A stretch of DNA of 64,000 nt, taken from positions 248,001-312,000 of the forward strand of contig VLTN01000024.1 in assembly GCA_008330645.1 (NCBI GenBank). The letters run 5' to 3'. The DNA comes from Cafeteria roenbergensis. Lineage: Eukaryota; Sar; Bigyra; Bicosoecida; Cafeteriaceae. The translations under genes were made by a program, and so were the position numbers. Position 1 is the stretch's first letter; every line of letters begins with the position of its first letter. Shown here piece by piece: positions 12,601 through 31,465 of the stretch. The notes beneath the pieces were generated by a model, which was not told the DNA's origin, made no database searches, and saw nothing but the letters and a program-made list of their open reading frames with translations.

Positions 12601-15600
12601 ATGGAGGAGTCCAAGGCCTCCGAGGAGCCGTTTGGCATTGACGCTGGCGAGTTTGACAGCGAGAGGGAGGCTAAGGCAGCCGCAAAGGCGGCAGCCAAGG
12701 AAGCCAAGGCCGCGGAAAAGGCTGCCCAGCGGCGCAGCAAGGAGCTGGCCAAGGAGCGCCGCTCAGCGTTCAAGAGCTGGGCCCGGGGGCTCAAGGCCAA
12801 GGACCCGGCAGAGCTCGCTGTGGCGCTGAGGGCATGCAACCACCGAGCGTTCATGGTGGATGGTGGCGGGGTGGAGGCGCTCGTGCGTGCCCTGGGCGCC
12901 AAGTCCGCTGCCGCCTCTGGGGCGGCCATTGCGGCGCTGGCGTCGTTCCTCCAGCCCCCGGCACGCGCAGCGTGCCTGCCACTCGGCCCCGACAGAGCCC
13001 TCGCGCCCCCCAGGCTGCGGCAGGACGCGCTGCGCGTCCTCCGCGCTGCAGAGGAGGCTGGGAAGTGGGTCGGGATGGAGGTGCTTGTGGCGCGGTTCGC
13101 GGACGCGGACTCTGCCGTGGCCTCGGCGGCGCTACGGGCTTGGGCGGCGCTATGGCAGGGCATAGCCGGGATGCCCGCGGACCACCCCGAGCGGCTATCT
13201 CTGCTTGCGGGCCTGCTGGCAGGCGGGGACGCGGTCCAGGCAGCTGCCGACGTCGTCGTGGACTTCGCCGCGGACCGGGCTCACGAGGCGCGCATGGCGG
13301 CGTGCGGGCTGGAGGTCACGGGCGAAGGCGCGACTCCTGGTTCCGACGGCGCTGCCAAGAACCCCCCTCCGGCCGTTCCCTCGCCCGGACTGGCGGCAGA
13401 GGCGTTGGAGCTGGTATCGGCAGTCACCGGAGAGTGCCTGGCCGGATCCACCGCGCCCCGAGCCCGCTGGCTCACTGAGCGGGCGGGAGGGGCTGTCCGC
13501 GACGCCGCGCTTGCCGTGGCCGTGGCCGGGGCCCGGCGCCAAGCCGAGGTTGCCGCCCGCGAAAAGGTCCTCGCTCGCGCAAGGCGAGATGGTGTCGCCG
13601 TGTCGGACGCAGCGGCTGCCACGCCGGGGCGGCCGGCCGACAGACCCTCCGCAGTGCTCTCGCCCGGAGAAAAGGACGGCGGCGCTGAGGCCGACGACGA
13701 CGACGCAGAACTCGGCGCCACGGGCGAGCACCCCTCCCACGCCGACCTGGCCGCGGACGCGTACCTGGCCGGCCCCGTGGCGCTGGGAGCAGCCGCATCG
13801 TCCACCATTGGGTCCTTGTCCCAGTGGCCGGCGGGCGACAGCGAGGACGGCGCGCCGGCTGGCGGGGCTGGCCTCGCCGAGGCAACGGACAAGGGCGGCG
13901 ACGACGTCCCCGCCGATGCTGGGATTGAGCTTGCCAGTGACGAAACAGCGCCCCTGGCAGCGGCAGAGGTCGCGGGCGTGGCTGCAGCCGTGCTCGCCGC
14001 CGCGCCAACGAGCGACGACGCCAGAGTCGCGGGCGCGCTCGCCGCTCTCTGCTCCGGCCCCGGAGGCCTTGACCAGGCCGACGCGTCGCGCCTCCGGGGC
14101 GACCCCGTCGCGGCGGCAGTTGCCCTGGCCCCGCCTCACCCACTCCGCGCGTCGGTCGCCGCGAGCCTTGTCTCTGCCGGCGCCCGCGGGTACCAGGCGG
14201 CCCGACGCAGGGTGACGGCAGAGCTGCTGCTATCCGCCGCGGCGGCCAGCGCCCAGGCGCGCGCAGCGCCGTCACAGCCTGTGCCCAGCGGCTTCTTCGA
14301 GGCCGTCATCTGGTGCTCATACCACACGGCCACGCCGCGGCCGCGCCCTGACCTTGGTCCCGCGGCGCGGGCGGCGCTGAGGGCGTCTGCTGCGGCCTCG
14401 TCGGCCCGCGCCAGAGCGCTGTCATGCGCCATCCTGAGCGACCTAACCTGGTCGCCAGCGCTCCGCCGCCGAATCCTCGCGGCCGGCGGCGTGACTGCTC
14501 TCACTGCTGCCATCGACGCGCTGACGCTAGACCGCGCCCACGGCATGCGGGCGGCGGCCCAGGCAGAGGCCAGCGGCGACTCCGCCGTCTCCCAGGCCCG
14601 CCAGCGACTGGCGCTGGGTCGGGGCGATGCTGCAAGCCTGCTTGCTGGCCGGCAAACCAGCAACACTGGCGAGGACGCCGAGGAGGCGGAACAGGCGGCG
14701 GCTGCAGCCGCTGCCGCTGCCGCTGCTTCTGGCGAGGACGACACCGCCGCAGCGGCGGCAGGCTCCGGAGCGGAGGCGGAGGCCGTCTCCGCCGCCAAGG
14801 AGGCGGTGTCGACTGCTCGGAGCGTGTCGGAGCTCATCGCTGCCTCGGAGGCGCTCGCCACCGCTGAGACAGCCGCGGCCCTCGGGTACGAAGCCGGCCG
14901 CTGGTCGGAGGCACTGAGCGACGGTGCTGTCTGGGAGACGAGCGACACCCCGCGCGCCGCTGGCCCGGCCGGCGCGCCGGCCACTTCGAGCCAAGACCCG
15001 CTGGTCGCGGCGCTTCGATGCGGCGTGGCGACACAGATTGCCGAGGAGGCTGCGGCCTCGGCTGAACTGGAAGGATCAGCCGCCGCGCGCGCTGCTGGGG
15101 AGGCTGTGGAGGACGTGTGCGCGGCTCTGCTGCGGCTCTGCCACAGCCGGGACGAGCTTGAGGCCGGGTTGGCGGAGGCCGCCGCCGCTGCTGCGGCCAA
15201 CGAAAGTGGCTGGCAGGTCGAGGCGGAGGCCGCCATCGCCGCCAGGGCTGCCCGCGCGGCGGAACAGTCTGCAGCTGAGGCTGCTGGGAAGCGCTTCCGG
15301 CCCAAGCGCCCGTCGCCCGACGAGGAAGAGGCAGAAGCGGCGGCGCTGCGCTCCAGGCGGGCGGCGGCAGAGAGTCGCGCGCGCGCCGACGCTCTGGAGC
15401 GCGTGCCCTCCAACGCAGCCGGCAGAGCTATTGCCCGGTTGGCTGCGGCGCTCGCCTCAGCCATTGCGCTGCCGCTTGGCGGCGCTGCCCCCCGGCCGGG
15501 CGCCGGCGCGAGCCATCACGGTCGCGCCTCGCCTTCACCCGCGGGCGCGCCTGGCCGGGCCCAGCCAGGCAGCGCCGCCCAGGGCGCCGACAGCGACTCG

Positions 15601-18600
15601 CGGCTCCGTGCGGCGCGCTGCCTCCGCCCCCACCGGTCGGCAATGGCCCTGCTGCGGCGCCTCGTCTGGGGCGCGCCGCACGAGCAGCTTCGCATCGCGT
15701 CCGGGCCGGCGAGCCCGTGGCGAGAGGCTGCGAGGGAGGCGGCCGGCGCCGCCGGCGCAGCGGCTGCCCTTGCGGCGCTTCTTGTCGACCCAGGCGCCAA
15801 CAGCCCCACCCGCGAGGAGGCCGAGCGTACGCTCCACTGCCTGGCACTGCGCCCGGCACCCGAGGGCGCGCCCAAACCGGGTGCCACCCAGGGGGCTGGC
15901 AGCAGCCCTCGGGGCTCGACCGCCCAGTCGGTGTGGCTGAGCGCCGCCGCTGAGGGCCACCGGTGGCTCACCAGAGGCTTTGCCGGCCGCCCAGGCGGCG
16001 AGGCTGGCGACGCGGCAGCTGACGCCGCCGGGGCCGACGAGGCCGAGGCCGAGGCCGGCGCGGCCGCGGCGGCAGAGGGCGAGGCCGCGTCGCCGCGCCC
16101 GGCAGGGCTACCGGCCCTGCCAGCCGAGTGGCGCATGGAAGCCAGCTCTGCCAATGCCGGCTTTGGCCCGGGCGTGCCGGCGCCGGGACCTGTGGCGGAC
16201 CTTCCCGCTGGCCTGGCCGGCGCGAGCAAGCTGGCGCGGGAGGCGCTTGCGAAGGGCGCGGACGGTGCTGTGGGTGCTGCCCTCATGCTGTCGGGGGGCA
16301 GACACACCCCCTGCCCGCTCGTCGAGCCCACCACCGCCGGCGGGGGGCGCTGGGTGGGGGCTTCGCACCTCGTTTGCGACGGCCGTGTCCTAGCAAGAGG
16401 CTCTGGCGGCGACGCAGACGCGCTGCTGATGGAGAGGGAGGAAGCAGCGGCCGCTGGGGCGGCTGCAGTGCTGCAGCAGGCCAGGGCCGCAGCGGAGGCG
16501 GCTGAGGCGGACGCCGCTGGCGGTGGCGCCGCGGGCAAGAAGAAGGCCGCTGCGGCCAAGGACAAGGCCGCGGCCGCCAAGAAGAAGGGCGCTGCCTCTG
16601 GAAAGGACAAGAAGAAGGGCAAGGGGGGAGCTGGCGGCGGCCAGGAGGGCGAGGACGACGAGGACGAGGAGGAGGCGCGAGAGCGGCTACTGGCGGAACG
16701 GGCCGCGCTCGTGGCTGCGGCCGGCGCCGCAAGCGCCTGGCGCTCTGACGAGCTCTTCGGTGGCAGCCCCAGCGCGCTGCCCGACGGGGCGGAAGCGAGC
16801 CGAAGCGGCCAGCCGGGCAGCGGGGGAGGCTGCACATACCCCGCAGCCGGGCCGTGGCTTGCCCCCGCCGACGTCGCCCGGCTCACCACTTGCGGCGCCC
16901 CTGCAGCCGGCCGCGTGCTGGCGCTGGACCCGCAGCGGCGCTGGCGCCGCGCCGTGGTGTCGGTCGTCAGGCGCGCAGCCTTTGCCGTGCTCCTGGGCAG
17001 ACGCGGCGACGCCTGGGCCGGAGCAGCAGCGGCCGTGCTGGCCCACCCTGTGCTCGCGGCGGCCGGCCTGCCCGGGGCCGCAGCGGCCTTCCCCGGCTCG
17101 CTCGCCGGTCCCGCTGCGGCCATGGCGGCCAGTGACGACGCGCCCTCGGCACCAGCTGATGACGCCGCCGCCGCCGCCGCTGCCGCCGCCGCCGCTGCCG
17201 CCGCGTCCCCCGATGGCGGTGCCGCTTCCGGTGCGGGTGTCGCGGGCGGCGCACGCCCTCCGGCCGCCGTCGCATGGACCGCCGGCGAGGCCGGAGTGTG
17301 TCGGGACGTCGCTCGCTGGCTGCGAGGCCGGGCCTTGCAAATGGAGGAGGCGTTCGAGACGGCGCTGGCAGCGCAGGGCGCGGGAGTGCGCGCCGCCGTG
17401 GCGGCAGGTGCCGTGGCGGCGGTCGATGAGCTCATCTCAGCAGGCGCCAAGCTGGCCGTGCCTCTCCCTGGCTGGACCGCCGACGTTGTTCTTGCGTCCC
17501 CGGCAGAGACGGTTGCGGCCATCGCTGCCGCTGAGTCAGCGGCTCGGGAGGCAGAGGCTGCGGCGGCGGAAGCAGCAGCGGCAGCGGAAGAGGCCGCGGC
17601 AGCGGCGGCAGCAGGCACCAAGGGTGGCAAGGGCGGCGCCAAGAGCGGAAAGGACAAGAAGGGCTCTGCCGGCGACAAGAAGGGCGGCAAGGGGGGCAAG
17701 CGCGACGGCGCCGGCGCCGACGCTGAGGGGGCTGACGGCGCCGACGGCCGGCAGCCGGCTGCGGATGAGGGGGCAGTGGCGGCGGCGCTGGCCGTGTCGG
17801 AGGCCAGGACACACTGGCCTGCAGGGGCCGCGGCGGCGCTGGCGGCTTGGGGCGCTGGCTCTCATGCCTCCAGTGCTGGTGCTGCTGCCGGCGCCGCAGG
17901 GGCGACGCCTGGCGCCGGGGGTGGTGTCGCCGCGGATGCCGCAGCGGGCGGGGAGGCTGACGAGCCTGCCAGCCCGTGTGAGGACGCGGGCGTTCCCTCC
18001 GTCGACCCGGCTACGGGGACGCTTGCGCCGACCAGCGGCGCCGTGCTTCCCGCCGGTGGCGCCGAAGCGGGTTCGCGCTCTGCAGAGGCGGACAGCCGAC
18101 TGCGCGGAGCCAGGCTGCTTTGCCTGTGGCAGGCGGCTGAGAGCGCCGAGTCCGCGGCTGACCGAGCGGACTCCATCGCCGCGTCGGGGCTTGTTCCGGC
18201 TCTTGCTGCAGCCGTCGTCGCCGCAGCCGCCGCGGTTCGGGCCGCTGAGAGCGCGGCCCTGACGAAGGGGTTCGGCGCAGGCGGTGCCGCCGCCCACCCC
18301 GCTGATCTCGAAGGGTGCGCAACGGCTCTGCAGGCGCTGCTTCCAGCGCTCCGCGCCTCCGCGGCCGCGGTGGCCGCCGTGGCCGAGAGCGGCCCGCTCG
18401 TCAGCGACGCCCTCCTTGTGCTTGCCCTGGGCGCCGGGCACGGCCGCACGTCGCCCCTGCTTGCGGGCTGCACGCACGCCCACATTGGCCCCGGCGCGGC
18501 CACGGGAGGGTGCCGCAGGCGCTCGCTCGTGGACGTGGCGCTGCTGGCAGCCGCGGCCGCCGCGGCCGTCTGTGACGCCGCCCTGACCATGCGCGTGCCC

Positions 18601-21600
18601 GCCCCGGCCGCGGAACCGGACGCGGAAAAGGCTGGCGCTGCTGGAGATAGCGCCCCTGCCGCGGAGTCGCTTCAAGACGACCCCGACCCGCTGCGGCTGG
18701 AGGAGCGGCCTGCTGAGGCTGCGAGCACGGCTCAGCACGCTGGCTCGGCGGCGTCGTGGTCCCCTGCGCAGCGACCCGCTCTGTGGCTCGCTCGGCACGC
18801 CGTTGCCGTCGCTCGCTGCGTGGCCGACACTGCCGCTGTTGCAGCGTCGGGGCTGGGCCTCTCGGCTCGGCGGACGGCTCTGCTGCGGCTCCTGGCCTCG
18901 GCGCTTCGCGTGCCGGGAGCCCTTGAGGGCCTGGTGGCGCAGGCTGGCAGGCCCAGCGACGCCGAGTGGAGGGTGCAAGCCGCGGCTGTGGCAGCGGAGA
19001 GGGCGCAGCAGCTGGAGGCAGCGCTGGAGGCCGCGGACGCGGCGTCGGCAGCGGCTGGTGCTGCGGGCGTGGACGTGCCCGGCCTGCTCGAGGCGCTCGC
19101 GCGCGGGCACGACCCCGCTGCTCAGGGCGGCGAGCGGGACAGGGAGAGCATGGCCGGCGGGGACGACCCGGGCGCTGCCTCTGCCGCTGCCGGCGCTGCT
19201 GAGGGGTCTGCCGACGGCGACGCGGGCGCGGACGACCCCGCGGCGGCGAAGCGACGAGCGGCCACAGCCGCTCTCGTCCAGGCGCGCCGGGCCCTTGACG
19301 CGGCAAAGACGGCCGCGGCGTCGCCAGTGGTTGCTCTCGCCCCTGCGGACGCTGCCGGTGAGCGCGCGGAATCTGCGGCTGCGGCTGCGGAGGCCAACCC
19401 GCTCCCCGGCGCCATGCTGGGCAGAGCCGCGGGCCTGAGCGGGGCCAAGGCTGCCAAGGCGGCCGCATCGCAGTGGATCGGCTGGGCGGCGCTGCCGACT
19501 GGCGCCGCCGCCAGGCTTCCGGGGGCCGGGGGGGCTGCCATGGGCGTGGCGGACGCCGCAGCTGCCGAAGCAGCGCGTGCGGCTGCCGCTGCGGCTGCCG
19601 CTGAGGCGGCGGGAGGCAAGGGCGGAGGAGCGGCGGCCGCCAAGAAGAAGGCTGCTGGCGCGGCCAGGGGCGGCAAGGCCAGCAGCGGCCAGGAAGACGA
19701 CGGCGAGGGAGCCGGCCGCAGCGGCCCGCTTTGCGACGCCGAAACGCTGCGCGCACGCTGCGTCGCGGAGGCGGAGCGGAGCTGGTTCAAGCAGCTGCCG
19801 CTCGTGCCGGAAGACGATACCGACGACGCCGACGCCGCTGGCGGTGGCGCCGCGGGCAAGAAGAAGGCCGCTGCGGCCAAGGACAAGGCCGCGGCCGCCA
19901 AGAAGAAGGGCGCTGCCTCTGGAAAGGACAAGAAGAAGGGCAAGGGGGGAGCCGGCGGCGGTGGCGGCGGCGAGGACGAGGAGGACGACGGGCGTTTGCC
20001 CGTTGAGCTGGGATGCAACGGTCTATCTCCGTTCCGCCTGCCGGTGGCGTGCGTGCTTCTCGAAGAGGACGTTGACGATCGCGCAAGGGCCGCTGCTGTG
20101 GTGACGTCAGGAACCCACGCCCCCGATAGCCGCCCCTGCTGCGCCGAGGCGGTGGCTGGCCCCGCCCTGGCCCGGCCGCCCCCCGACGGACAGACGGAGG
20201 TGCCACCCAGCCGGGAGTGGCGCACTGCGGCCGGGCCCTTTGTGGAGACCGGCGATTGCACTGCCGCGTCCGCTGAGCGGCTCGAGGCGGCGCGCGCCGT
20301 GGTGCAGCGCGCGCGTGCCGCGTTCACGGCCAGCGTCTTGGCCACCCTGCTGACCCCCGCCCTCGACACGCTCTGCAGCGCCGGCGCGTCCGCCACGCAG
20401 GCGGAGGCAGCTGCTGCGGTAGAGCTGCTCATCGCCGCCAGCGTGGCTCCTCTCAGCCCCGCCGGCGCCCAGCCTCCCCTGCGGACCGCCGCCGCCGCGC
20501 ACTGCCTCCGGGCGGGCCTCTTGCCCGCGCTGCTGGCAGCCGTCACCTGCCCTCCCCCCCGGCCCGCTGCGGGCGCCGCGGCGAGCGGCGGGTCGCAGCC
20601 GCCCTCCACGCCGTCCACAGCGCCTGCGACGCCCCGCCTGCTGGTGTCGCCCAACCCCGTCCGTCCCCCCGTGCCCGCCAGGCACCCTGTGGGCGCCGCC
20701 GCGCTTCCCTCGCCGCCGGTGCAGGCCGGGCTGGCGACGGCATCGGTCGACTCGCTCGAGGGCGCGAGCACGGGCCTGGGCGGAGCGGGAACCGGCGGCG
20801 GCTTGGCGCAGCCGTCCGCTGCCGAGTCGGCGCTGGACCGCGTATTTGCCGACATGGACGCCGCTGGGGCGGCGGCTCACGCCATGACGGACGCCGCAGT
20901 TGTGGCCCAGGCGGGTGTCCGCCCGCTCAGGGCAGCGGCTGCGCTCGCAGGCGTCGCTCCCTCCGCCATGGCTGCCGCGGCCGCGGCTCTGCCCCCGCCG
21001 CCAGCCGTCATCCACGGGGCCGTTTCGGGGCTTTGCGCGGCGGGGGGCGTGTCTGGCGAGCGCTTCCGTCGCGTTCCCGTCGACTTCGAGGTGCGGGAGG
21101 TGCCCTCCGCAGGCACCGCCACGGAGCTGCTGCGGGAGGGCGAGGCAGGGCCGAGCCGCGAGGAGGAGTGCCAGGCTCTGGCGGCAGACACTGCAGCGGC
21201 CGTTGCGGCGGCTGGAGGCTACTGCCCCGGCGACGGTATGAGCTACGCGGCAGCCGGCGTGGCCACGGAGCGCGGCCGCTGGCTGGCGGCTGCTCTCGTC
21301 TGCCGCGGCCTTGCTCGCGATGCACTGGCTCGCGAGTGGTCTGTCTGGGCAGAGGCAGCCGACCCGTCTGCCGACGAAGCAGCGGACGGCAAGGCGGGAG
21401 CCAAGGGCGCAGCGGCGGCCAAGAAGGCCAAAGCAAAGAAGGCCGGCGCCAAGGACGCTGCCGCGCAGGAGGAGGCGGACGGCGGGCAGCCGCCAGCCAA
21501 GCCCGTGGCGGCCAAGCACTCGGCGGAGGTGCCTTGGGCTGCCCTCAACGGCCCGAGCGCCGCCAGCTGGCGCCCGCTGCTGCTGCCGCGCTCGCCCGCG

Positions 21601-24600
21601 TGCCGCCTGGTGGACTGTGTCGCCGACGTCGACGCCGCGGTGGCGGGCTCTGCCGGGCTGGCGTCGCTGGCCCGCGCGGCAACTGGCCCCCTGGTGCCGG
21701 GGCGCGACCACTGGCGCATTGCCCTCGCCACAGCGCTGCATGCCGCAGCCGAGGGCGGGGACGCGGCGATGTGCGCGGCGCTGGTGCAGGCAGGGGCGGA
21801 CGTCAACGCCAGGGACTCCCGCGGCCGCGTGCCTGCCATGGCTGCGTTCGACTGCGGCCACGCTGCAGTGGCGATGGAGCTGTGCCGCTCGGGCACGGAC
21901 CTCCGAGCGGTGGACGCCGTGGGCGATCCCCTGCTGAAGCACGCCGCCTGCTGCCCGGGCCCGCGCGAGCTGCAGGCGCTCGTGGCCTTTGCTGAGGCCA
22001 CCGCGGGGCCGGAGCAGGGCGCGCCTCCCGACGGCTTCGGCGCAGCCGCCCTCACTTCCGCCTCGCCGCTGCCGTTGCCCCGTGCGAGCGAGGCGGTGGC
22101 CGCGGGTCAGCCTGGCCTGCTGGCCGCCTGCTTGCAAATGGGCGCAGGTGCAAACCTCTCCCGCGGAGCCGGTCTCCCAGCCGGGCACGGCGGAGCGCCT
22201 GACAAGTGCAGCCCGGCACCGTCGTCGGACCTGGCCAACGCTGGGGATGCGGGGTCGGCAGCAGCTGCCGCCGCCAGCATCCAAGCTGCTGCTCGGGGCC
22301 GTGCGGCCAGGTCGGCGGCGGCGGTCGTGGCCGCAGCGCGGCTTCGCTGCGGCCGCCCTGCGCAGTGCGTGGCCCCCGCCTCAAGCGCCGCTCACTTCGC
22401 CGAGCTGCTGGCCATGGGGTGCGACGCCTCGCAGGCAGATGCCAGGGGCATGAGCGCGCCACACTGGGCTGCGGGCGGGGCCGTGGTCCGGTCCCGGTCG
22501 GGGTCGCTTCGCACGCGGCTCTGCTCCTTCGAGGACCCTGTCGCTGTCTGCGAGGCGCTTGCGGCGGCCGTGGAGGCAGGCGGCGACGTGGAGGCGGCCG
22601 ATGCCTCTGGGCGCACGCCGCTCATGACTGCGCTGTTCGAGGCGCAGCCGGAGGCGGCGGCGGCGCTGCTGGCCGCTGGGGCCAGCTCCAGCTGCACCGA
22701 CCGGTTCGGCACATCGGTGCTTCACTACGCATGCCTGGGCCGGGGCTGGGGCAAGGAGCGTGGCCGGGTCGCGCCGTCGTGGTCTCCGGCAAGCAGGGAA
22801 GCGGCCGGCCCCGAGCCGGAGGCGCTCGCGGTGGCGGCGGCGGAGGCTGCCGCTCGGATGGCCGCTGCCCTGGCCCCGGGAGGGCGCGCCGATCCTGCCC
22901 GCGTGCGCGACGGCCCTGCGGTCACTGCAACTGCGCTTCCGCCGCTTCGAACTTCGCTTCGCTTCAGGAGGCGCGACGCTGCGGCGACAGGAGCGGGCGC
23001 TGCGAGCGATGCTCCGCCGGCCGAGGAGGCACGGTCAGTGCCGGGGGCGCCAGAGGGTGACCGGGCATCCGAGGCGGTGGCGAGCGCAGCGGGCTCTGCC
23101 AGGACGCTTGCTCGCGGCTGGCTGGAGGCCGGCCCAGCGGGCCTGGTGCGTGCGGTGCTGCACCGGGGCGTGGGGCGGCCCATGCGGCGGGCAGTCCCGT
23201 CCGTTGCAGCGTGCCCCGGCGCCGTGGCCCCGGAGGCGGCCCTTGCGACCCCCAGGGAGCGCGCTCGCGCGCGGCTTCGCGCGCGTCTTGGCGCCAGCCT
23301 CGCCGCCGGCGCCGCTCCCCCTTCCGTGGCCGGCGCGCCGTGCTCCTTGCGCGAGCTGGTTTCGTGGCTGAGCGACGCGGGCGTTCGCCCGGGCCACGTG
23401 CTGGCCGGGGCGGGGCTGCGGGGCGGCGCGTTCGCAGCCGCTGGCGTGGGCGGCCGTGGCCACGCTGCGTGGGGGCCTGCATCGGGCTGCGGAGGGGGCT
23501 CGCGGGGGCGCAGGGGCGGCGCGTTCAGGGAGGCGCCCCCCGGGTCCCGGGAGGTGTTCTGGGCCCTGGAGCCGGCGCCTGGTGACGGCGTCACGGAGGC
23601 CACCGCCTCTGCCTCCCTGCGCCGTGCCGCTGCGGAGGTTGAGGCGCGCCAGAAGCTGCTCCTGGCGTTGGATGAGGCCCTCGCCGCCGCCCCCGCTGCC
23701 GCCGCCTCCGGCGCGGCGCCGGCCCCCGAAGAGCGGGCGATCGGCGCGTGGCGAGGTTCGTGCGGCGTGTCCGTGGTCCACGGGTGGGCCGCGGGGCTGC
23801 TCCTTCCGGTGGAGCTCGCCGCCCCCGCCGCCGCCTTTGCCCCGACAGAGCCTCAGGCAGGGGACCCGTGTGGCGGCGGAGGCCGCGCGAGCCCTGGCCT
23901 GGAGCCCGACAATGCGTCAGTGGGCTCCGGAAGCGCCGGCCGGCGCTCTCCCTCCCCGACCGCCTTCTCGTCAGCCGACGCCCACTCGCCCCTCCGCCGG
24001 CGCCTGCCGGGCGGTAGCAGGGCCTCACCAACGTCCTCTTCGCCGCCGCCTCCGGCTGCGCTTCCCCGCAGCCCGCGCGACGCGGCGCCCATCCTTGGCG
24101 GAGACGCGTCCTCGTGGCCGCCTCGCATCCCCACCGCGTCGGTCGCCTCGGCGGCGCTGGGAGCCTGTCTGCGCGAGGCGTGCTCGGTCACGCAGTACAT
24201 CCGGGCGGCTGCGTCTCTGCTCAGCGACCTGGTGCGGTCCGCGGGTGGGCCTGCAGAGGCTGGCGGCGTCGACTCGCAGTCCCTTGTGGGCAGCGGCGGC
24301 AGGCGCTTTGGCCCGGCTCACTACGCAGCGGCGGTGGTTTCGGGCGCGGCAACGCCTTGGTCCAGGCCCGCGCCAGGCAGGCTGGAGGCCGACGCTGCGG
24401 CTGGGCTGTCGAGCCGCGAGGTCGGCCTGTGGGCGCTGCTGGCGGCCGGCGTGGCCGTGGCGCCTCCCACGTGCAACCCACCCGTCTCGCACATCGCCGC
24501 GGCCGCCGGCGTGTCGCCGCGGCTGTTTGAGTGCCTGGTGAGCGCGGCGGCAGCCGAGGCTGAGGCCGCAGAGGCGTCGGTAGCGGAGCGGCGGGCGCAG

Positions 24601-25761
24601 GTCGAAGCTCAGCGGGACGCGCTGGCGGTCACCTCCGGCTCTGCTGCACACGTGCTGTCGGCCGCGGCGTCCCCAGCAGCCTCCAGGCTGGCCTCGCCTG
24701 CGCGCCCCGTGGCAACCTGGGCCCTCCCCGACGCCACGGGCCTGGCCGGCCCCCCCGGAATCGGCGAGCGGCGGTTCGCGGGCACAGCCCTCATGGAGGC
24801 GGCCGAGGCCGGCCGGGAGGCACTGGTCCGTTGGATCCTCGAGACGGCCCCCCGCGCCGCAGGCAGCCTCGATGCCGGGGGGAGCGGCTCGGTGGAGTCG
24901 GGTCCCTTCCTCCCGTCCCCTCAGCGGCGAGGGGCTGCTGTGCCCGAGCAGCGCGTCGACCTGGCCCCCACCGGAGGCGCTCGTGGAGTGGACGTCAACG
25001 CTGCACGTCCTCACAGCGGCCGCACAGCCCTTCACTTGGCGGCGTTCAACGGCCACGCTGGCGTGGTGAAGCTGCTGCTGCGCGCGGGCGCAGACGTTGG
25101 CGCGGAGGACCACCGAGGCGAGGCGCCGCTCATGTCTGCGGTTAAGGGCAACCAACCGGCCGCCGTGAAGGCGCTGCTTCTCTCGGGCGCGGCCGCGCCG
25201 GCGTCGGAGGTGCTGCGGCCGTCCGCGGACGGCGAGACCCCGCTTCGGGTTGCCGAGCGGATCAATGTTTGGGCGTGGACGGGGCTTGGTGGGGACGCTA
25301 GGGACGCCGCCGCGGCAGGACGGGGCCCAGGGGCAGCTTCAGGAGCGGAAAGGACTGCTTCGCCGCCCCAAGCGACCGACGCCTCCTCGGCTGCGCTGCT
25401 GGTCGAGGCGGAGCCGGACCCACTTGGCGCCTCGGAGTCGCTGCGAGCTGTTCGAGCCGGCCTTGGCAAGGCACCCACGCAGGCAGCAGCCGCGGCAAGC
25501 GACCAGGTGGTGCTCACATTGCTGCGGGTTGCAGCCATGGCGGGCGGAGCGCCCGAGGGCGACCACCTCCACGAATGCTTCCGCCGAGGCCTCACCTACG
25601 GCGAGCGCGCCGCAGCTGCTGCCGGTGGCATGACGCGTGTCAAGGTGCTGCGTGACGCCGTCCTCAAGGGCACGGACGGGTTTCCGTCGCTGGCAGTTCG
25701 TGAGCGCCGCTCCAGCCTCGGGGACGGCCCGAGCCAGACTGGGGTCAAGTTTGCTGTGTGA
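12601..25761 (+). CDS. Giant armadillo/ankyrin-repeat protein, single exon
   Basis: This is 4,386 residues in one uninterrupted 13.2-kb exon. The ATG follows a clean context (gaaccATGGAGG). The N-terminus has an Ala/Lys/Glu helix (about 20-65). A long Ala-rich alpha-helical region follows that looks like degenerate armadillo/HEAT repeats, for example VEALVRALGAKSAAASGAAI at about 91-110. Lys/Gly/Ala-rich basic linkers occur near residues 1305, 1675, 2337, 2410 and 2930. Ankyrin repeats appear at about 3040-3120, 3260-3380 and 4130-4220 (GRTALHLAAFNGHAGVVKLL). One IQ-like motif, SIQAAARGRAARSAA, lies at about 3223. Arm plus ankyrin plus IQ suggests a large scaffold, possibly cytoskeletal; that is inference. 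Composition is extremely Ala-rich (many poly-Ala runs). Frame integrity over 13 kb argues the gene is functional. Function is not known. Confidence 0.85.
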   Translation: MEESKASEEPFGIDAGEFDSEREAKAAAKAAAKEAKAAEKAAQRRSKELAKERRSAFKSWARGLKAKDPAELAVALRACNHRAFMVDGGGVEALVRALGAKSAAASGAAIAALASFLQPPARAACLPLGPDRALAPPRLRQDALRVLRAAEEAGKWVGMEVLVARFADADSAVASAALRAWAALWQGIAGMPADHPERLSLLAGLLAGGDAVQAAADVVVDFAADRAHEARMAACGLEVTGEGATPGSDGAAKNPPPAVPSPGLAAEALELVSAVTGECLAGSTAPRARWLTERAGGAVRDAALAVAVAGARRQAEVAAREKVLARARRDGVAVSDAAAATPGRPADRPSAVLSPGEKDGGAEADDDDAELGATGEHPSHADLAADAYLAGPVALGAAASSTIGSLSQWPAGDSEDGAPAGGAGLAEATDKGGDDVPADAGIELASDETAPLAAAEVAGVAAAVLAAAPTSDDARVAGALAALCSGPGGLDQADASRLRGDPVAAAVALAPPHPLRASVAASLVSAGARGYQAARRRVTAELLLSAAAASAQARAAPSQPVPSGFFEAVIWCSYHTATPRPRPDLGPAARAALRASAAASSARARALSCAILSDLTWSPALRRRILAAGGVTALTAAIDALTLDRAHGMRAAAQAEASGDSAVSQARQRLALGRGDAASLLAGRQTSNTGEDAEEAEQAAAAAAAAAAASGEDDTAAAAAGSGAEAEAVSAAKEAVSTARSVSELIAASEALATAETAAALGYEAGRWSEALSDGAVWETSDTPRAAGPAGAPATSSQDPLVAALRCGVATQIAEEAAASAELEGSAAARAAGEAVEDVCAALLRLCHSRDELEAGLAEAAAAAAANESGWQVEAEAAIAARAARAAEQSAAEAAGKRFRPKRPSPDEEEAEAAALRSRRAAAESRARADALERVPSNAAGRAIARLAAALASAIALPLGGAAPRPGAGASHHGRASPSPAGAPGRAQPGSAAQGADSDSRLRAARCLRPHRSAMALLRRLVWGAPHEQLRIASGPASPWREAAREAAGAAGAAAALAALLVDPGANSPTREEAERTLHCLALRPAPEGAPKPGATQGAGSSPRGSTAQSVWLSAAAEGHRWLTRGFAGRPGGEAGDAAADAAGADEAEAEAGAAAAAEGEAASPRPAGLPALPAEWRMEASSANAGFGPGVPAPGPVADLPAGLAGASKLAREALAKGADGAVGAALMLSGGRHTPCPLVEPTTAGGGRWVGASHLVCDGRVLARGSGGDADALLMEREEAAAAGAAAVLQQARAAAEAAEADAAGGGAAGKKKAAAAKDKAAAAKKKGAASGKDKKKGKGGAGGGQEGEDDEDEEEARERLLAERAALVAAAGAASAWRSDELFGGSPSALPDGAEASRSGQPGSGGGCTYPAAGPWLAPADVARLTTCGAPAAGRVLALDPQRRWRRAVVSVVRRAAFAVLLGRRGDAWAGAAAAVLAHPVLAAAGLPGAAAAFPGSLAGPAAAMAASDDAPSAPADDAAAAAAAAAAAAAASPDGGAASGAGVAGGARPPAAVAWTAGEAGVCRDVARWLRGRALQMEEAFETALAAQGAGVRAAVAAGAVAAVDELISAGAKLAVPLPGWTADVVLASPAETVAAIAAAESAAREAEAAAAEAAAAAEEAAAAAAAGTKGGKGGAKSGKDKKGSAGDKKGGKGGKRDGAGADAEGADGADGRQPAADEGAVAAALAVSEARTHWPAGAAAALAAWGAGSHASSAGAAAGAAGATPGAGGGVAADAAAGGEADEPASPCEDAGVPSVDPATGTLAPTSGAVLPAGGAEAGSRSAEADSRLRGARLLCLWQAAESAESAADRADSIAASGLVPALAAAVVAAAAAVRAAESAALTKGFGAGGAAAHPADLEGCATALQALLPALRASAAAVAAVAESGPLVSDALLVLALGAGHGRTSPLLAGCTHAHIGPGAATGGCRRRSLVDVALLAAAAAAAVCDAALTMRVPAPAAEPDAEKAGAAGDSAPAAESLQDDPDPLRLEERPAEAASTAQHAGSAASWSPAQRPALWLARHAVAVARCVADTAAVAASGLGLSARRTALLRLLASALRVPGALEGLVAQAGRPSDAEWRVQAAAVAAERAQQLEAALEAADAASAAAGAAGVDVPGLLEALARGHDPAAQGGERDRESMAGGDDPGAASAAAGAAEGSADGDAGADDPAAAKRRAATAALVQARRALDAAKTAAASPVVALAPADAAGERAESAAAAAEANPLPGAMLGRAAGLSGAKAAKAAASQWIGWAALPTGAAARLPGAGGAAMGVADAAAAEAARAAAAAAAAEAAGGKGGGAAAAKKKAAGAARGGKASSGQEDDGEGAGRSGPLCDAETLRARCVAEAERSWFKQLPLVPEDDTDDADAAGGGAAGKKKAAAAKDKAAAAKKKGAASGKDKKKGKGGAGGGGGGEDEEDDGRLPVELGCNGLSPFRLPVACVLLEEDVDDRARAAAVVTSGTHAPDSRPCCAEAVAGPALARPPPDGQTEVPPSREWRTAAGPFVETGDCTAASAERLEAARAVVQRARAAFTASVLATLLTPALDTLCSAGASATQAEAAAAVELLIAASVAPLSPAGAQPPLRTAAAAHCLRAGLLPALLAAVTCPPPRPAAGAAASGGSQPPSTPSTAPATPRLLVSPNPVRPPVPARHPVGAAALPSPPVQAGLATASVDSLEGASTGLGGAGTGGGLAQPSAAESALDRVFADMDAAGAAAHAMTDAAVVAQAGVRPLRAAAALAGVAPSAMAAAAAALPPPPAVIHGAVSGLCAAGGVSGERFRRVPVDFEVREVPSAGTATELLREGEAGPSREEECQALAADTAAAVAAAGGYCPGDGMSYAAAGVATERGRWLAAALVCRGLARDALAREWSVWAEAADPSADEAADGKAGAKGAAAAKKAKAKKAGAKDAAAQEEADGGQPPAKPVAAKHSAEVPWAALNGPSAASWRPLLLPRSPACRLVDCVADVDAAVAGSAGLASLARAATGPLVPGRDHWRIALATALHAAAEGGDAAMCAALVQAGADVNARDSRGRVPAMAAFDCGHAAVAMELCRSGTDLRAVDAVGDPLLKHAACCPGPRELQALVAFAEATAGPEQGAPPDGFGAAALTSASPLPLPRASEAVAAGQPGLLAACLQMGAGANLSRGAGLPAGHGGAPDKCSPAPSSDLANAGDAGSAAAAAASIQAAARGRAARSAAAVVAAARLRCGRPAQCVAPASSAAHFAELLAMGCDASQADARGMSAPHWAAGGAVVRSRSGSLRTRLCSFEDPVAVCEALAAAVEAGGDVEAADASGRTPLMTALFEAQPEAAAALLAAGASSSCTDRFGTSVLHYACLGRGWGKERGRVAPSWSPASREAAGPEPEALAVAAAEAAARMAAALAPGGRADPARVRDGPAVTATALPPLRTSLRFRRRDAAATGAGAASDAPPAEEARSVPGAPEGDRASEAVASAAGSARTLARGWLEAGPAGLVRAVLHRGVGRPMRRAVPSVAACPGAVAPEAALATPRERARARLRARLGASLAAGAAPPSVAGAPCSLRELVSWLSDAGVRPGHVLAGAGLRGGAFAAAGVGGRGHAAWGPASGCGGGSRGRRGGAFREAPPGSREVFWALEPAPGDGVTEATASASLRRAAAEVEARQKLLLALDEALAAAPAAAASGAAPAPEERAIGAWRGSCGVSVVHGWAAGLLLPVELAAPAAAFAPTEPQAGDPCGGGGRASPGLEPDNASVGSGSAGRRSPSPTAFSSADAHSPLRRRLPGGSRASPTSSSPPPPAALPRSPRDAAPILGGDASSWPPRIPTASVASAALGACLREACSVTQYIRAAASLLSDLVRSAGGPAEAGGVDSQSLVGSGGRRFGPAHYAAAVVSGAATPWSRPAPGRLEADAAAGLSSREVGLWALLAAGVAVAPPTCNPPVSHIAAAAGVSPRLFECLVSAAAAEAEAAEASVAERRAQVEAQRDALAVTSGSAAHVLSAAASPAASRLASPARPVATWALPDATGLAGPPGIGERRFAGTALMEAAEAGREALVRWILETAPRAAGSLDAGGSGSVESGPFLPSPQRRGAAVPEQRVDLAPTGGARGVDVNAARPHSGRTALHLAAFNGHAGVVKLLLRAGADVGAEDHRGEAPLMSAVKGNQPAAVKALLLSGAAAPASEVLRPSADGETPLRVAERINVWAWTGLGGDARDAAAAGRGPGAASGAERTASPPQATDASSAALLVEAEPDPLGASESLRAVRAGLGKAPTQAAAAASDQVVLTLLRVAAMAGGAPEGDHLHECFRRGLTYGERAAAAAGGMTRVKVLRDAVLKGTDGFPSLAVRERRSSLGDGPSQTGVKFAV
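16510..16631 (+). repeat. 122-bp intragenic repeat, copy 1
   Basis: This copy is identical over 122 bp to 19831-19952 and encodes a Lys/Ala-rich linker (GKKKAAAAKDKAAAAKKK). Identity continues about 9 bp further after one mismatch. Perfect third-position identity points to recent duplication or gene conversion. Confidence 0.9.
19831..19952 (+). repeat. 122-bp intragenic repeat, copy 2
   Basis: This is the second copy of the Lys/Ala-rich linker segment, in the same reading frame as copy 1 at 16510-16631 and about 3.3 kb away within the same exon. Confidence 0.9.
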
Positions 25762-26016
25762 TGCTGCTGCTGCTGCTGCGAGTGCTGCGGGTCTCGCGAT
25801 TGCTTGAGCACCCTCGGGAAAACGGAGAGAGGAGGTGACAGCGTCGCGCGTCGGGCGGCCTTACGAATGCGTGAGTGGGGACTTGAGCGCGCCCCTGCTC
25901 ACGCGCGGAGCCATCACGCAGCTCAAATAATCGCCTGTCGCACTGCCTGTGAAGCCGTCGCCCAGCAATCGGCTGACCGCTGCCATCCTCAGCAGGCGAC
26001 GGTAGTGTGTGCCACG
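25762..26016. other. Convergent intergenic region with CTG run
   Basis: This short spacer separates the giant gene and the ankyrin exon gene. It begins with a (CTG)5-like run just after the TGA stop of the giant gene. No gene was seen. Confidence 0.5.
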
Positions 26017-29000
26017 TCACGAGTGCCACATGGCCAGGTGGCGGCGGCGGTGCCACCGCTGGATGCGCTCGGCGTCCTGTAAGACCAACTTGCAAGTCTG
26101 CGCGCTGCACAACGCAGCCGCACCGCGGCCATCCTGCGCGCCAGAGCAGCAACAGCAGTCGACGAAGCTCAGAGAAGAGTCAGTCCGTGCCACAACGCAG
26201 CGGAAGCATGCTTCGCCATGAGCCCAGAGTGGCCGGTCTCCAACTGACTGTGCTCGTGGCTCCGGCGTCGGCACCGCGAATCAGCAGCTGACGCGCGACT
26301 TCCGCCCTGCCGAGCTGTGCAGCCCACAGCAGTGCAGTCATGCCGGCCTGTGCAGGTTGTGTATGGAAGGGGGGGGGGGGGAAGGGGGCGTGGCGCGACG
26401 GTGTCGGCGAAATGCATCCGTGGAAGCACGCCGCGTGCGCCGGGAGGGGCCGTCCTCGGGTAAACAACGAAACGGGCAAGCCTCAACCGAGCGAGCCGTG
26501 GAGCATTTTGTGCAACCGTTGGCAAATCGTGCTCTCGAGGCCGCAGCGTTGACTGACGTCGTCTTCAGCCTCTAGGCTGGCGCCGCAGTCCAGGAGCAGC
26601 GACGCCACCTCGCCAGCCCGGCTTTGAGACGCCCACATCAAGGGCGTCCTCCCGGTCTGCGTCGGCCATAAAGCGAGCAAGGCAGAAAGACTTCGCTCCC
26701 AGCTGGCTCAGAATGAGTGCAACTGCAGCAGAGGAACAAATCCACCAGACGCGCAGGTTCCCACCACATGCCGTCTCTGTGCAACCGCATGCCCCGAGCG
26801 GCTAAGGGAGGCGAGACGTACAGAATCCTTCGCCTGCGGGTCGCTTCCCCACTGAAGAAGCACTGCGGCCACCATGACACTGCCCCTGCCTGCCGCTTTG
26901 ATAAGCGGCGTCTTGCCATGCTGCGCCGGAACGCGGCAGGCCTTGCTGGGGGGAAGGGGATCAAGATCCGATTCAACGCTTGCATATGAAGCTGAGACGG
27001 ATGCCCTCGGGCCTTTCGCGAGCGCGACCAAAGCCCTTGCATCGTTTCTGGCACCCCCTTCCTGTTCAAGTCACCTCGCGCTGCTGGCTTGCAAGCTGGC
27101 TTGAAGCCGTGTCGCACACGATCCTTGGCCTCCACGTCCGCACCCCGCTGCAGCAGCAACCTAGCAGCATTGGCCTTGCCCTCCGTTGAGGCCAAAGCCA
27201 GAGCTGTCTGGCCATCCTGTGACAATGAAGGAGATCAAGCAACCTCATCTCGGTTGTTCAGGCGCACGTTGGTGAACATCGCAACTTGTCTTTGACCCTG
27301 CACTTTGGTATTGGCAACGGTGAAGTGTTGATGCCCAGCAGAGAGCAAGTCCAGAGGGAAGTGTCCCAGAGGTCCCCCTCGCGACCAGGCCCGGTCCGCC
27401 CCCCCCCTGCCGACCGCAAGCGCAAGACGAACATCATCCATGCCCCCCACGTCCGCGCCAGCATCGAGCAGGAGCTCCATAATCCTGGAGTGGCCGTTTC
27501 GAGATGCCCAAATCAGAGGGGTCCCGCCATTCTGCGCGGGTCGATGCGCGTCACCGATTCCGATTTTGCGTCCACAACGCAATGCTCCAAATCCTGCAGC
27601 GTGTGCTTCACAGCATCGGCTGGCTGGCACTCGCACCCCAAGCTCGACAGGGCTCCTGAACAGTCAGAGACTGCCGAGTTGCGTTCCCGGGGAGTCTGCG
27701 CCAGATCAGTTGGTTGCCTACCCGCGACCTGGCCTCCAAGCATGCGCCGCGATTGATCAGAGCGCAAGCCACCTCGGCATGCCCATGCACGGCAGCCCAG
27801 ATGAGCGCTGTCTTGCCTTCCTGCGACGACTCTGAAAAGCGGCGCCGGCGTCGCTGCTGGCTGTGAAAGCCGCTGCGATGGGCAGCCAATCATGCCGCCT
27901 GCCCAGCTGGGTACAACTCTCGGAAACCCGCCCGGTCCGCCGGCTGCCACTCAGCCCCGCTGGTCAGTTCGTGCTTGCCCACATTCTGCAGGCAAACTGA
28001 CGCAGCACTTGGCCTCCAGGTCGGCACCGTATCCAAGCAACAGGTCTGCCGTTGGTCCGTGCCCTCCGCTGGCGGCCCATACGAGTGCCGACATGCCACC
28101 CTGTGCGCCTCAACTCAAGGGTGAGCAGGGGGGCAAGTAAGCCAACGGGGATGGATGCGCCAATAGCCATTCCGCCAGGGCAAGTTTGGCAAACGCCGCA
28201 TGCATGCATGCAGCATCAGTTCCCCGCGCCTGCGCCAGCGGCGTCTCCCGCCAGGGCCGAAGCTGGCGCCTTCTCGGCTACCCGCACTCCCGCATCTCAG
28301 CCGGGGAAGCAGCCCCGCAGCCACACCCTCGTGCGTAGGCCAGCGCAGCGGTCCGCGGGCTGACGCTGCTCGTGGCCGTCAAGTCGGCGCCGCAGTCCAG
28401 AAGCAGCCTTGCGACGTCACTGTGGCCACACCAAGCTGCCCACATGAGCGCGGTCTTGCCATCCTGCGGCTCTCAACCAGGGCGCGGCAGCAGTCGTGCA
28501 TGAGTCAGCCTCGGTCGTGCTGCACCACTGCAACTGTCGCTGACCGACTCGCCAGGTCCTACGCTGCTCTTGGCCTTGACGTTGGCTCCCCGGCCCAGAA
28601 GCATGTCTACAACCGCGGCTTGGCCTGCGCTAGCAGCCCAAATAAGGGCCGTCCGTCCGAACTGCATCCCGGTCGGCGAAGCAGATGCGTCGCGCAGCAC
28701 GGTCGGTGGACCAGGCGCACGAAACGCAGACCCTCGCACCCCAAGCCGACTGCCGCTCTTGCTGGCAAGCACTTGGCTCCTGAGCCGGTGGCTGCTGCGC
28801 GCTCTCGGCCGCGCGGCTGACGTAGCTCTTGCCCTCAATGTCAGCTCCGCGGTCCAGAAGAATTGCCGCAGTGTCCGCGTGACCACGTTGCGCCGCCCAA
28901 ATGGCGGCGGTCATGCCATTCTGCGAACTCGCAGCCGTCCGCAAAGCTCGCGGCATCGATGCGCGCGGCACAGCCGGCCAGCGGGCGCCGACCCGCCAGC

Positions 29001-29169
29001 CGCTTGTCGCGGAATTTGCAGCAGCTTGAAGCCGGTCGCTCACACCGTGCTTCGATTCGACCGCTGCGCCTTGGTCCAGCAGCTGGGCCACCCTGGCCGT
29101 GTCGCCCCGCCCTGCAGCGTAGAGGAGTGCCGTCCCCAGGTGCTCGGGGCCTGCAACGGCCGCAGCCAT
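26017..29169 (-). CDS. Ankyrin-repeat protein encoded as one 99-bp exon per repeat
   Basis: There are twelve exons: 29169-29044, 28920-28822, 28661-28563, 28463-28365, 28100-28002, 27820-27722, 27531-27433, 27216-27118, 26920-26822, 26656-26558, 26347-26249 and 26133-26017. Together they encode 410 residues. Exon 1 is MAAAVAGPE plus one repeat. Exons 2-11 are each exactly 33 codons, phase 0 at both ends, and encode one ankyrin repeat starting x-G-x-T/S-A/P-L and ending just past G-A-x-x-x-A-K. Exon 12 gives a basic tail (ERIQRWHRRRHLAMWHS) and the stop. Introns are 99-264 bp. Eleven of the twelve acceptor-side boundaries read cag or gag before the exon. Donors are GT but varied (GTCAG five times, GTAGG twice). 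Ankyrin repeats bind proteins; the partner is unknown. Exact periodicity makes the model strong. Confidence 0.85.
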
Positions 29170-29697
29170 CGCCCTCGCGCCGCAGCGGCTCGTGTGCTGG
29201 CTGCGCTTGCTGTTGCTGTGCCAGGGGCTGCTGCAACTCTGCCGACGCTGTGCGACGCGCCCCGCGGCGAGCGTCAAAGCGTGGGCAAGTCGCCGCTGTC
29301 CCTGCAGTGCCGCGATTCCTGTGCGCGGACTCGGCGCACGGGTGCCGTGTCCGCGGTGCCTGGGGCAGAAGCGGCCGCGCGGCAGCGAAACAACGGGCGG
29401 AAGTACAGGGACGGAGAGAGTTCGAGGCCGCTTTGGGGTCGCAGCTGTCGCGACTTGGCGTGGCGCTCCCAGCGTCGTCGCGGCGGCCCGCAGGCGTGCG
29501 AATCGAGTGAGGCTTGTGATTCAGGATCGTCTTTGCCTCTGCGAGGTGCCTGCGAAGCGGGCAGCCAGCGCCTCTGCGCCCCGCCTTTTGGGCTTTGCGG
29601 CCGCTCGAGTCTGGGGTCGCCATAGTTGATTCCGGCCCAAGATTTGACGGGTCCCGGCTCGTGCCGCAAAGCAGCACCCGCCCCGCGGACAAGCAAC
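29170..29697. promoter_or_regulatory. Divergent intergenic region
   Basis: This is 528 bp between the ankyrin gene and the WW-PH gene. I found no convincing extra exon or promoter motif. An additional 5' exon of the ankyrin gene cannot be excluded. Confidence 0.3.
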
Positions 29698-31465
29698 ATG
29701 GCCACGGAGGCCGAGGCCCGCTGGCTCGTTGCCGTCGACCGGGACACGGGGGACATGTACTACTTCAACCAGGCCACGGACGAGACGCTGTGGGAGCTCC
29801 CCGCGGGGGTGTACCCGAGCGGGCTGGCGGTGCTTCGAGGCGAGATGGACGACGAGCTGGTGGACGAGGGAGAGCCCCGCGAGCGCGTGTTCGCGCGGGA
29901 GGGGTTCCTCATGAAGGCGCCGGTGGGAACAGGCAAGTGGCGCAAGCGCTGGCTCGTGGCGGACCGCGTGACGAGGACGATGACCTGGTGAGCTTGGTTG
30001 GCGAGCAATCCCCAGTTGCACACCGCGGCGCGATTGCCTGCGCCCCCTCTCCGCTGGAGCCGCGCCCCCGCCCCCCGGCGGCCGGGCACTTGCCCCCCAG
30101 CTCCCCCCCTCGCTTGCTCCAGCGGAGGCCTGGGGCAGGCGAGGCTTTGCCCCGCGGGGGCGTTGCGGGCCTTGGCGAGAGCTTCGATCTCCTTGTTCCC
30201 CCCCGCGTGCCTCTGGTCCCGCTGATGCCGCGCTCAGGTACGCCGCGAACCCCCGGCAGTCGATGGCGCGGCTCAAGGTCAGCGAGCCTGTCAAGGGCAG
30301 CCTGTCTCTGGTGGGAGCGCGCCTTTGCCGCACCCGCGCGGAACTGCCAGCCGGGACCTCCGTGAACTCGTCGCCTCCGCACGCGCACGAGCTCTTCGTC
30401 GTGACCACCGGGCGCACTCTGCACCTTTGCGGGCCGAGCGCGTCGGACATTGCTGGCTGGTGCTCCTACCTGGAGCGCGCCATCGAGGGCCGGTCGTCGC
30501 ACACGGGCGCCAAGGTTCGCGAGGTGGCTGCGCGCGCAGGCGGCCCGCCCCGCGGCACCATCGCGGCGGCAACCATGTCGGAGGCCATCGTGCCCCGTGT
30601 ACTGCCGTCCGCCGTGTCCGTCAGCGCGTGGGTCCACAAGCTCAACCCGGACGGGCACAGCTGGGACAGCCGCTGGGCCACGCTCAAGCCGGACGCGCTC
30701 ACGTTTTCGTACTACGTGGGCCCTGAGAAGGGCGACCGCTGCTGCCGCGTGGTGGACCTCACGTACGCCACGCTGCAGGGTGGCTGCGCGAGCCCGGCGG
30801 ACCCCACCGCGGATGCCACGCTGCGCCGCAGCCCCGGGTTCCGGCTCGCCGTGCACGCCACCGCAGGCTCGCGCGACCCCGAGCGCACGCTCGTCTTCGT
30901 CTGCCCCAGCTTCGCCGAGGCCCAGACCTGGGTCGACGCCATCCACACGGCCATGGAGCTGGGCGTGCCGGAGCGGGAGGGCGTGTTCAAGCGGCAGGCC
31001 AGCGCGGGTAAGGCAGCCACGCCGACCCCGCGCCCCCCCGGAGCTGCTGCCCCGACTCGTCGCGTGCCGCGCCTGAGCGAGCTGCCCGTGCTGCAGACCA
31101 CGCTCTTCAAGTCCAACCCCGCCGGCACCAAGTGGGGCGCGCGCACGCTCGTGCTGGTGCCGCACGCCAGCAAGGCCTCCTTCGCCCCGGGGGTCGCGCC
31201 CACCGAATGCCCCTGCATCGCCTACTACAAGGGGAGCGACTCTGCCAGCGGGCCCAAAGGCATCATTAACCTGGCAGAGGTGGTGGGCGTGGCCGCCTCG
31301 GCCCCTCAGGCGGTGCGCCGCAGCGCCCCCGGCGCTTACATCCTCACCATCAGCACGGACGACCGCGCGTACTACGTCAGCGCCAAGAACGAGGCGGAGC
31401 TGGTGCGCTGGCGGGACGCCATTTTCGAAGTGGCCGAGGCGTGGAACAACACGCCGGACGAGTGA
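29698..31465 (+). CDS. WW-PH-PH-PH adaptor protein
   Basis: There are two exons: 29698-29987 and 30238-31465. The 250-bp intron has a GTGAGC donor and a cgctcag acceptor and splits a Trp codon 2+1. The product is 505 residues. A WW domain lies at about 7-38, with Trp9, the aromatic Y-Y-F at 21-23, Trp32 and Pro35. WW domains bind PPxY-type proline motifs. The first PH domain (about 69-175) is itself interrupted by the intron; splicing restores its strand order from KWRKRWLV to the final helix GWCSYLERAI. Second and third PH domains lie at about 224-338 and 380-498, each ending in the expected Trp-bearing helix (TWVDAIHTAM, RWRDAIFEVA). The role is inferred as a membrane-recruited adaptor. The convergent neighbour VPS37 carries six PPAY motifs, possible WW ligands. 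Confidence 0.85.

Follow-up and report, generated by a model that had tools for sequence, protein, structure and literature searches.

A predicted family of ankyrin-repeat genes in Cafeteria roenbergensis with one repeat per 99-bp exon

We analysed a 64,000-nucleotide stretch of a Cafeteria roenbergensis contig (the window) and found on its minus strand a predicted gene in which ankyrin repeats are encoded one to an exon. The initial annotation had presented this as a single odd gene; the genome searches instead place it in a family of, by estimate, about 100 genes. The best overall explanation of these genes is a cassette family of ankyrin-type binders, to which we assign a probability of roughly 0.7. 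Its parts differ in strength. The gene structure together with duplication of the cassettes is close to certain as far as sequence can take it, and a role as a recognition repertoire, in which binding is predicted from homology only, is a tentative proposal at slightly under even odds.

RESULTS

Structure of the window gene

Reading the minus strand of 25400–29900 gave a frame of 410 codons, running from 29169 to 26017 in 12 exons: exon 1 has 126 bp, each of the ten ankyrin exons that follow has exactly 99, and the terminal exon has 117. Exon 1 (29169–29044, minus strand) carries nine leader codons including the ATG, followed by a degenerate first ankyrin unit (an N-cap), and ends in phase 0; a first exon resembling it can be read upstream of the array at another family locus, L017. 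In the gene model each of the 99-bp exons on the minus strand is one ankyrin unit: exon 2 (28822–28920), exon 3 (28563–28661), exon 4 (28365–28463), exon 5 (28002–28100), exon 6 (27722–27820), exon 7 (27433–27531), exon 8 (27118–27216), exon 9 (26822–26920), exon 10 (26558–26656) and exon 11 (26249–26347). Exon 12 (26017–26133, minus strand), supported by the gene model and by genome-wide matches, encodes a degenerate half-ankyrin and a conserved basic, tryptophan-containing tail, AERIQRWHRRRxLxxW, and ends with the stop codon.

This model bears out the initial annotation's eleven ankyrin units on eleven exons (29169–26249, with canonical GT/CAG introns) and its statement that ten of them are exactly 99 bp with phase 0 at both ends (10/10, exons 2–11); the first exon is, as described there, an ankyrin unit with nine extra codons including the ATG. 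The eleven-unit plan of the earlier description therefore stands, but it had neither named the strand, which is minus, nor counted the twelfth, terminal exon at 26133–26017.

The eleven introns are all in phase 0 and 99–264 nt long, and all (11/11) have a GTNNG donor (GT, with G at +5) and a CAG acceptor. There is no internal stop in the 410-codon frame, and there are 10 when the 11 introns are read on in frame. A scan of the window introns for a branch-point motif gave nothing consistent. We infer from sequence that the eleven introns are spliced. The spliced product matches the Pfam families Ank_2 (E 5e-82) and Ank (E 8.4e-70), in keeping with tandem 33-residue ankyrin units, and no non-ankyrin Pfam family at E ≤ 0.001. 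Its best PDB sequence matches are chains of ankyrin-1/-2, and DARPins are among the best. From repeat to repeat, dN was 0.57 and dS 1.34 (usable values from 28 of 55 pairs).

The neighbourhood holds other long open frames. Adjoining the window gene on the plus strand is one of 4386 codons (12601–25761) with ankyrin repeats near its C-terminus, inside which ARAGORN places a tRNA-Ser (gga) at 23091–23172; another giant open frame, of 4245 codons, lies on the minus strand at 44827–57564. The GC content of the window in 2-kb steps was 63–78%.

Splice-site edges of the ankyrin units

We located ankyrin units at other loci by scoring 33-codon windows with a position matrix derived from the eleven units of the window gene. 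An AG directly before and a GT directly after were found at 191/281 units in a first set of loci, some of which overlap; when the offset was moved by 1–6 bases either way (12 shifts), both dinucleotides were present at 0/281. The AG/GT edges are thus not chance. Once three loci had been added and duplicate coordinates removed from the control, 227 of 240 units in the family loci and the window had both edges, compared with none of 54 in intronless ankyrin arrays (L001–L008). A Pfam model spanning about three repeats was used to retrieve the control loci, which are hence contiguous by choice (those on C126 and C162 being near-copies), and all that this comparison shows is that neither ankyrin sequence nor the matrix generates the edges by itself. 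Family loci were picked by similarity to the window gene and not by their edges, and their units are not independent, since L013/L014, L011/L027 and L025/L026 are pairs of close copies. The 13 unedged units comprise three from the adjoining giant frame on the window's plus strand, two on the minus strand of L023 with a donor and no acceptor, and eight others in which the donor is GC or the edge or frame is displaced. At L024 the unit at 3318 has a GC donor (GCGAGT) instead of GT.

One repeat per exon is not supported as a habit of the whole genome. The Pfam ankyrin matches listed for the genome fall mostly in long open frames, intronless ankyrin arrays exist, and many LRR matches also lie in long open frames, as found with a model that covers more than a single repeat and is thus biased towards contiguous ones. 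A second, intronless ankyrin expansion was seen at L001 (C20:267 kb) and L003 (C28:64 kb), with units of ~34 residues and the C-terminal motif WERR.QLLAWR. One further intronless ankyrin frame, of 602 codons on contig C77 (L028, C77:113400-116100), ends in the family tail LQRWxRRRxLxxW (LQRWFRRRHLVFW), which is an independent sign that the tail is translated together with ankyrin repeats. The C77 gene is possibly an ancestor, a retrocopy or a tail fusion.

Family size and the terminal exon

The genome searched comprised 36,303,456 bases on 167 contigs, and all match counts are lower bounds. A search of it for the light-harvesting family PF00504 yielded no match. With the terminal exon as a protein query there were 109 matches at E ≤ 1, itself included, on 55 contigs (109/109 candidates scored); E was below 0.01 for 102 of the 109. 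Our figure of about 100 genes is only an estimate from these matches, because at least one of them is the intronless gene on C77. A single window ankyrin exon as the query gave 917 first-look candidates, of which 150 were scored, with 150 matches listed at E ≤ 0.01. Neighbour spacings among these 150 listed units were below 600 bp in 47/96 cases, and none of the 47 was 90–110 bp, the smallest being 265; ankyrin units among the 150 are thus separated by intron-sized gaps. Exon 1 as a query gave 95 matches at E ≤ 0.1, all weak (best 0.0012) except the window's own, and the family count leaves these out.

In a motif scan of the fetched loci and the window, 15 of 16 tails followed a chain of 1–15 AG/GT-edged ankyrin exons; the sixteenth (L023, minus strand) had no preceding chain of edged ankyrin exons. 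On this pattern of matches the conserved basic/Trp terminal tail is the signature of the cassette-exon family. A known C-terminal domain for the tail was considered and rejected: in five tails the Pfam matches were weak (DUF6798, Elicitin and ABATE) and all below the cut-off. A SOCS box gave no match at E ≤ 10 in five terminal exons, in a search where the HMMER filters drop most weak matches and a remote one could escape.

Duplication of exon–intron cassettes

Within young members of the family the introns closely resemble one another. Lengths recur from intron to intron, 242 nt being the value in L010, L012 and L023, 209 the prevailing one in L022 and 191–192 in L016, and the introns within a gene average 94–97% identity in L010, L012, L016, L020 and L022. 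This near-constant length and identity indicate that the duplicating unit is the exon plus its intron. Intron subfamilies are also common to genes on different contigs, such as L010 and L012 (mean 93.8%). One array, in the region L020–L021 (C40:278000-291500), has 18 chained cassettes in L020, introns of 379–396 nt averaging 95% identity, and further units in L021.

A change of one unit can be read from L013 and L014, the 5′ flanks of which are 99.0% identical over 2.2 kb. Units 1, 2 and 4–10 of L013 have partners in the same order in L014 at 99–100%, while the third unit of L013 corresponds to two consecutive L014 units (97 and 98%), bracketed by units at 100%. For unit 11 of L013 identity drops to 90%, and the L013 sequence past the array finds no counterpart in L014. 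Judged from these alignments, the two copies differ by one cassette and would be either alleles or recent duplicates. L014 lies near the end of C5 and L013 near the start of C90, and the two may be alleles that the assembler could not join.

Many family members lie near contig ends. A subtelomeric location was rejected: the terminal 120 nt of four contigs, inspected by eye, had no telomere-like repeat. Contig C10 (the end of L024) stops 13 nt into an apparent further cassette exon; arrays may break the assembly, and breaks of this kind explain the contig-end positions as well.

The introns of the window gene are dissimilar to one another (mean identity 0.68 in forced global alignment). Its 17 non-self DNA matches, from a search that skips very common words, centre on exons 4, 5 and 12 (14/17 on exon 4) and extend no more than 17 nt into an intron. 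With the introns diverged and the matches centred on exons, the duplications in the window gene would be old, as judged from its relatives. By its sequence the gene is an old, diverged member of the family, in which the intron similarity would have decayed and the frame been kept. Growth by exon duplication, one of the two origins offered in the initial annotation, is accordingly seen in the relatives, with their 94–97% identical introns, and is no longer visible in the window gene; regular independent placement of introns, the other, is disfavoured by the exon-centred position of all 17 matches.

Distribution of residue variation

As the contact set we used seven positions (1, 3, 11, 12, 24, 31 and 33 in exon numbering) that we take to be those randomised in designed ankyrins. 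The set was written down after the variation had been seen, and the test is not blind. Mean residue diversity over 19 arrays was 0.552 in the contact set versus 0.259 elsewhere, and the contact value was the higher in 19/19 arrays, some of which are close copies; against random sets of seven positions p was ~0.0004, or 0.0006 without the window. Variability was just as high at two positions that do not belong to the contact set, 7 and 8 (0.62 and 0.65), and contact position 24 was low (0.24).

Exon and intron diversity were compared over all pairs within an array, with the first unit dropped. Exon diversity exceeded intron diversity in five arrays (L012, L016, L019, L020 and L022) and fell below it in six older arrays (L013, L014, L015, L024, L025 and L026) and in the window gene. 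Only in L020 and L022, among those five, did no other 99-column window of the unit surpass the exon in diversity; the exon's rank among such windows was 31/341 in L012, 65/290 in L016 and 61/313 in L019. The diversity of contact codons exceeded that of introns in 12/12 arrays, the window gene being a near tie (0.598 versus 0.591). The excess was about 4–8-fold in L012 (0.277/0.064), L016 (0.242/0.063), L020 (0.228/0.051) and L022 (0.274/0.033), and only 1.5-fold in L019 (0.186/0.125).

In close pairs of units from 15 arrays, contact codons had a nonsynonymous rate of 0.235 and a synonymous rate of 0.249, so that dN/dS is ~1 and not above it; the other codons gave 0.090 versus 0.150 and the introns 0.028, a rate lowered by the choice of the close pairs by intron similarity. 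The contact nonsynonymous rate beat the mean synonymous rate in 9/15 arrays. We do not claim dN/dS > 1 at the contact positions, where the two rates are about equal. In the young arrays diversity at third codon positions, too, is above that of introns, which suggests that introns may have been homogenised by exchange while exon differences were kept. Homogenisation of this kind has been argued for MHC genes. Since exon silent sites are more diverged than introns, some of the contrast between contact codons and introns could come from homogenised or constrained introns. On these rates the contact positions appear to evolve fast, at about the rate of exon silent sites, and diversifying selection and relaxed constraint both fit.

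DISCUSSION

We propose that the unit of evolution in this family is a cassette, namely one 99-bp phase-0 ankyrin exon and its intron. The sequences of the young relatives show cassettes copied in tandem within genes, with repeat number shifting by whole exon–intron units and a conserved terminal exon, with its basic tail, at the end of the gene. Gain and loss of cassettes may occur by unequal crossing-over or gene conversion, given that near-identical introns provide long homology and that phase-0 exons hold the products in frame. Since the exons are symmetric, any gain or loss of a cassette, or any predicted skipping of an exon, would be frame-neutral. The proteins would then be ankyrin-type binders with diversified contact positions, forming a putative germ-line recognition repertoire directed at prey, virus or self/non-self, and the conserved tail may link them to a common partner. 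Because the contact positions were picked with the variation already in view, we grade the recognition role below even odds. The fullest version of the proposal, in which some 100 germ-line DARPin-like binders are built from in-frame cassettes that are swapped in the genome and, by exon skipping, in the transcript, is speculative and rather unlikely.

The main competitor accepts the turnover of cassettes by unequal crossing-over but makes it neutral; the variable residues would be the least constrained surface positions and have no role in recognition. About equal nonsynonymous and synonymous rates at contact codons (0.235 versus 0.249), alongside other codons that look constrained (0.090 versus 0.150), are what relaxed constraint would produce; some units carry edge or frame changes, and the variability of positions 7 and 8 matches that of the contact set. 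Against it, contact codons are ~4–8 times as diverse as introns in four young arrays (1.5 times in L019), which is above neutral if the introns are neutral. We consider neutral turnover a serious possibility that nonetheless falls well short of an even chance.

Two other explanations, each very improbable, concern the exon–intron structure itself. An introner-like mobile intron might repeatedly have invaded an intronless ankyrin gene, each time at the border between repeats; intronless ankyrin genes do exist, one of them (L028) with a related C-terminal tail, and the published genome has few introns per gene (PMC6972860). Yet insertion of a mobile intron agrees poorly with the matches of the window gene, 0/17 of which centre on an intron, or with a similarity of introns that, among the family introns fetched for comparison, was found only between some members, and in this family the exons duplicate together with their introns. 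The exons might otherwise be an unspliced relic, either what is left of a dead gene or fragments that resemble ankyrin by chance, and some relatives indeed carry altered units. The intact 410-codon frame over 12 exons, the 11/11 canonical introns, the terminal exon matched in ~100 places and the excess of dS over dN between repeats of the window gene (1.34 versus 0.57) argue strongly against a relic. We favour the cassette family of ankyrin-type binders.

Genes with one repeat per exon are known from other protists and algae, the nearest published parallels being Tetrahymena LRR genes and brown-algal ROCO genes. Tetrahymena LRR genes are described as having exons of exactly 90 bp in phase 2, with ectopic recombination proposed, and most of the 90-bp-exon genes are reported to be under purifying selection (account in PMC6564038). 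On that account the Cafeteria family shares with them a single-celled host, exons of one length, introns of uniform phase, a division into age groups, and tandem arrays that vary in length; it differs in having ankyrin rather than LRR units, 99 rather than 90 bp, phase 0 rather than phase 2, and ~100 genes rather than tens of thousands of exons. Brown-algal ROCO (LRR-ROC-COR) genes, according to the relevant passages of PMC11378527, have 72-bp phase-2 exons, exon shuffling and alternative splicing of the repeat exons, with diversifying selection reported, and are proposed immune receptors. The stramenopile lineage and the use of one repeat per exon are common to both systems as so described, but ROCO genes fuse LRR exons to a ROC-COR GTPase, whereas the window gene has only ankyrin Pfam families at the threshold given above. 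As for the features of such one-repeat-per-exon classes, exact exon length and phase are found in the window gene (10/10) and tandem cassette copies in its relatives; the mark of an introner, a non-self match centred on an intron, was not found in the window gene.

Two comparisons concern ankyrin repeats themselves. Animal ankyrin genes, which are few and conserved, also have 99-bp repeat exons; the Cafeteria genes differ in being a family with recent tandem cassette copies. No paper on 99-bp ankyrin exons was found in a search of the open-licence literature. Designed ankyrin repeat proteins likewise combine a fixed framework with most variable residues at the same positions, but the Cafeteria units are natural, genomic and encoded one repeat per exon, and vary at positions 7 and 8 too and little at 24.

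The published assemblies of C. roenbergensis (now C. burkhardae) are given as having 1.67–1.89 introns per gene, and the CrBVI assembly as 170 contigs, 36,327,047 bp and 70.1% GC (PMC6972860, in the sections concerned). The word 'ankyrin' is absent from the searched text of that genome paper and from the main text of PMC8547959. An InterPro ankyrin entry appears in a growth-phase enrichment table for C. burkhardae, by its placement in the stationary-phase part, and the table entry does not single out the cassette family (PMC7852580). No description of an ankyrin family with one repeat per exon, in Cafeteria or another protist, was found in the open-licence literature searched.

The protist and algal one-repeat-per-exon families that we found described are LRR-based (ciliate and brown alga), and an ankyrin version would be independent of them. 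Its occurrence in a heterotrophic flagellate would suggest that one-repeat cassette exons recur for fast-evolving binding proteins. Such a family may be mishandled by gene predictors set up for some two introns per gene, and its near-identical cassettes by assemblers. If the genome is that of Cafeteria burkhardae, assemblies of four strains are published and RNA reads are available (strain E4-10, ENA PRJEB36247; PMC7852580), making cassette turnover, repeat number among alleles, skipping of exons and any tie to prey or virus testable. If the recognition reading is true, a unicellular bacterivore and giant-virus host would have a recognition logic comparable to those proposed for brown algae and Tetrahymena, built on an ankyrin scaffold.
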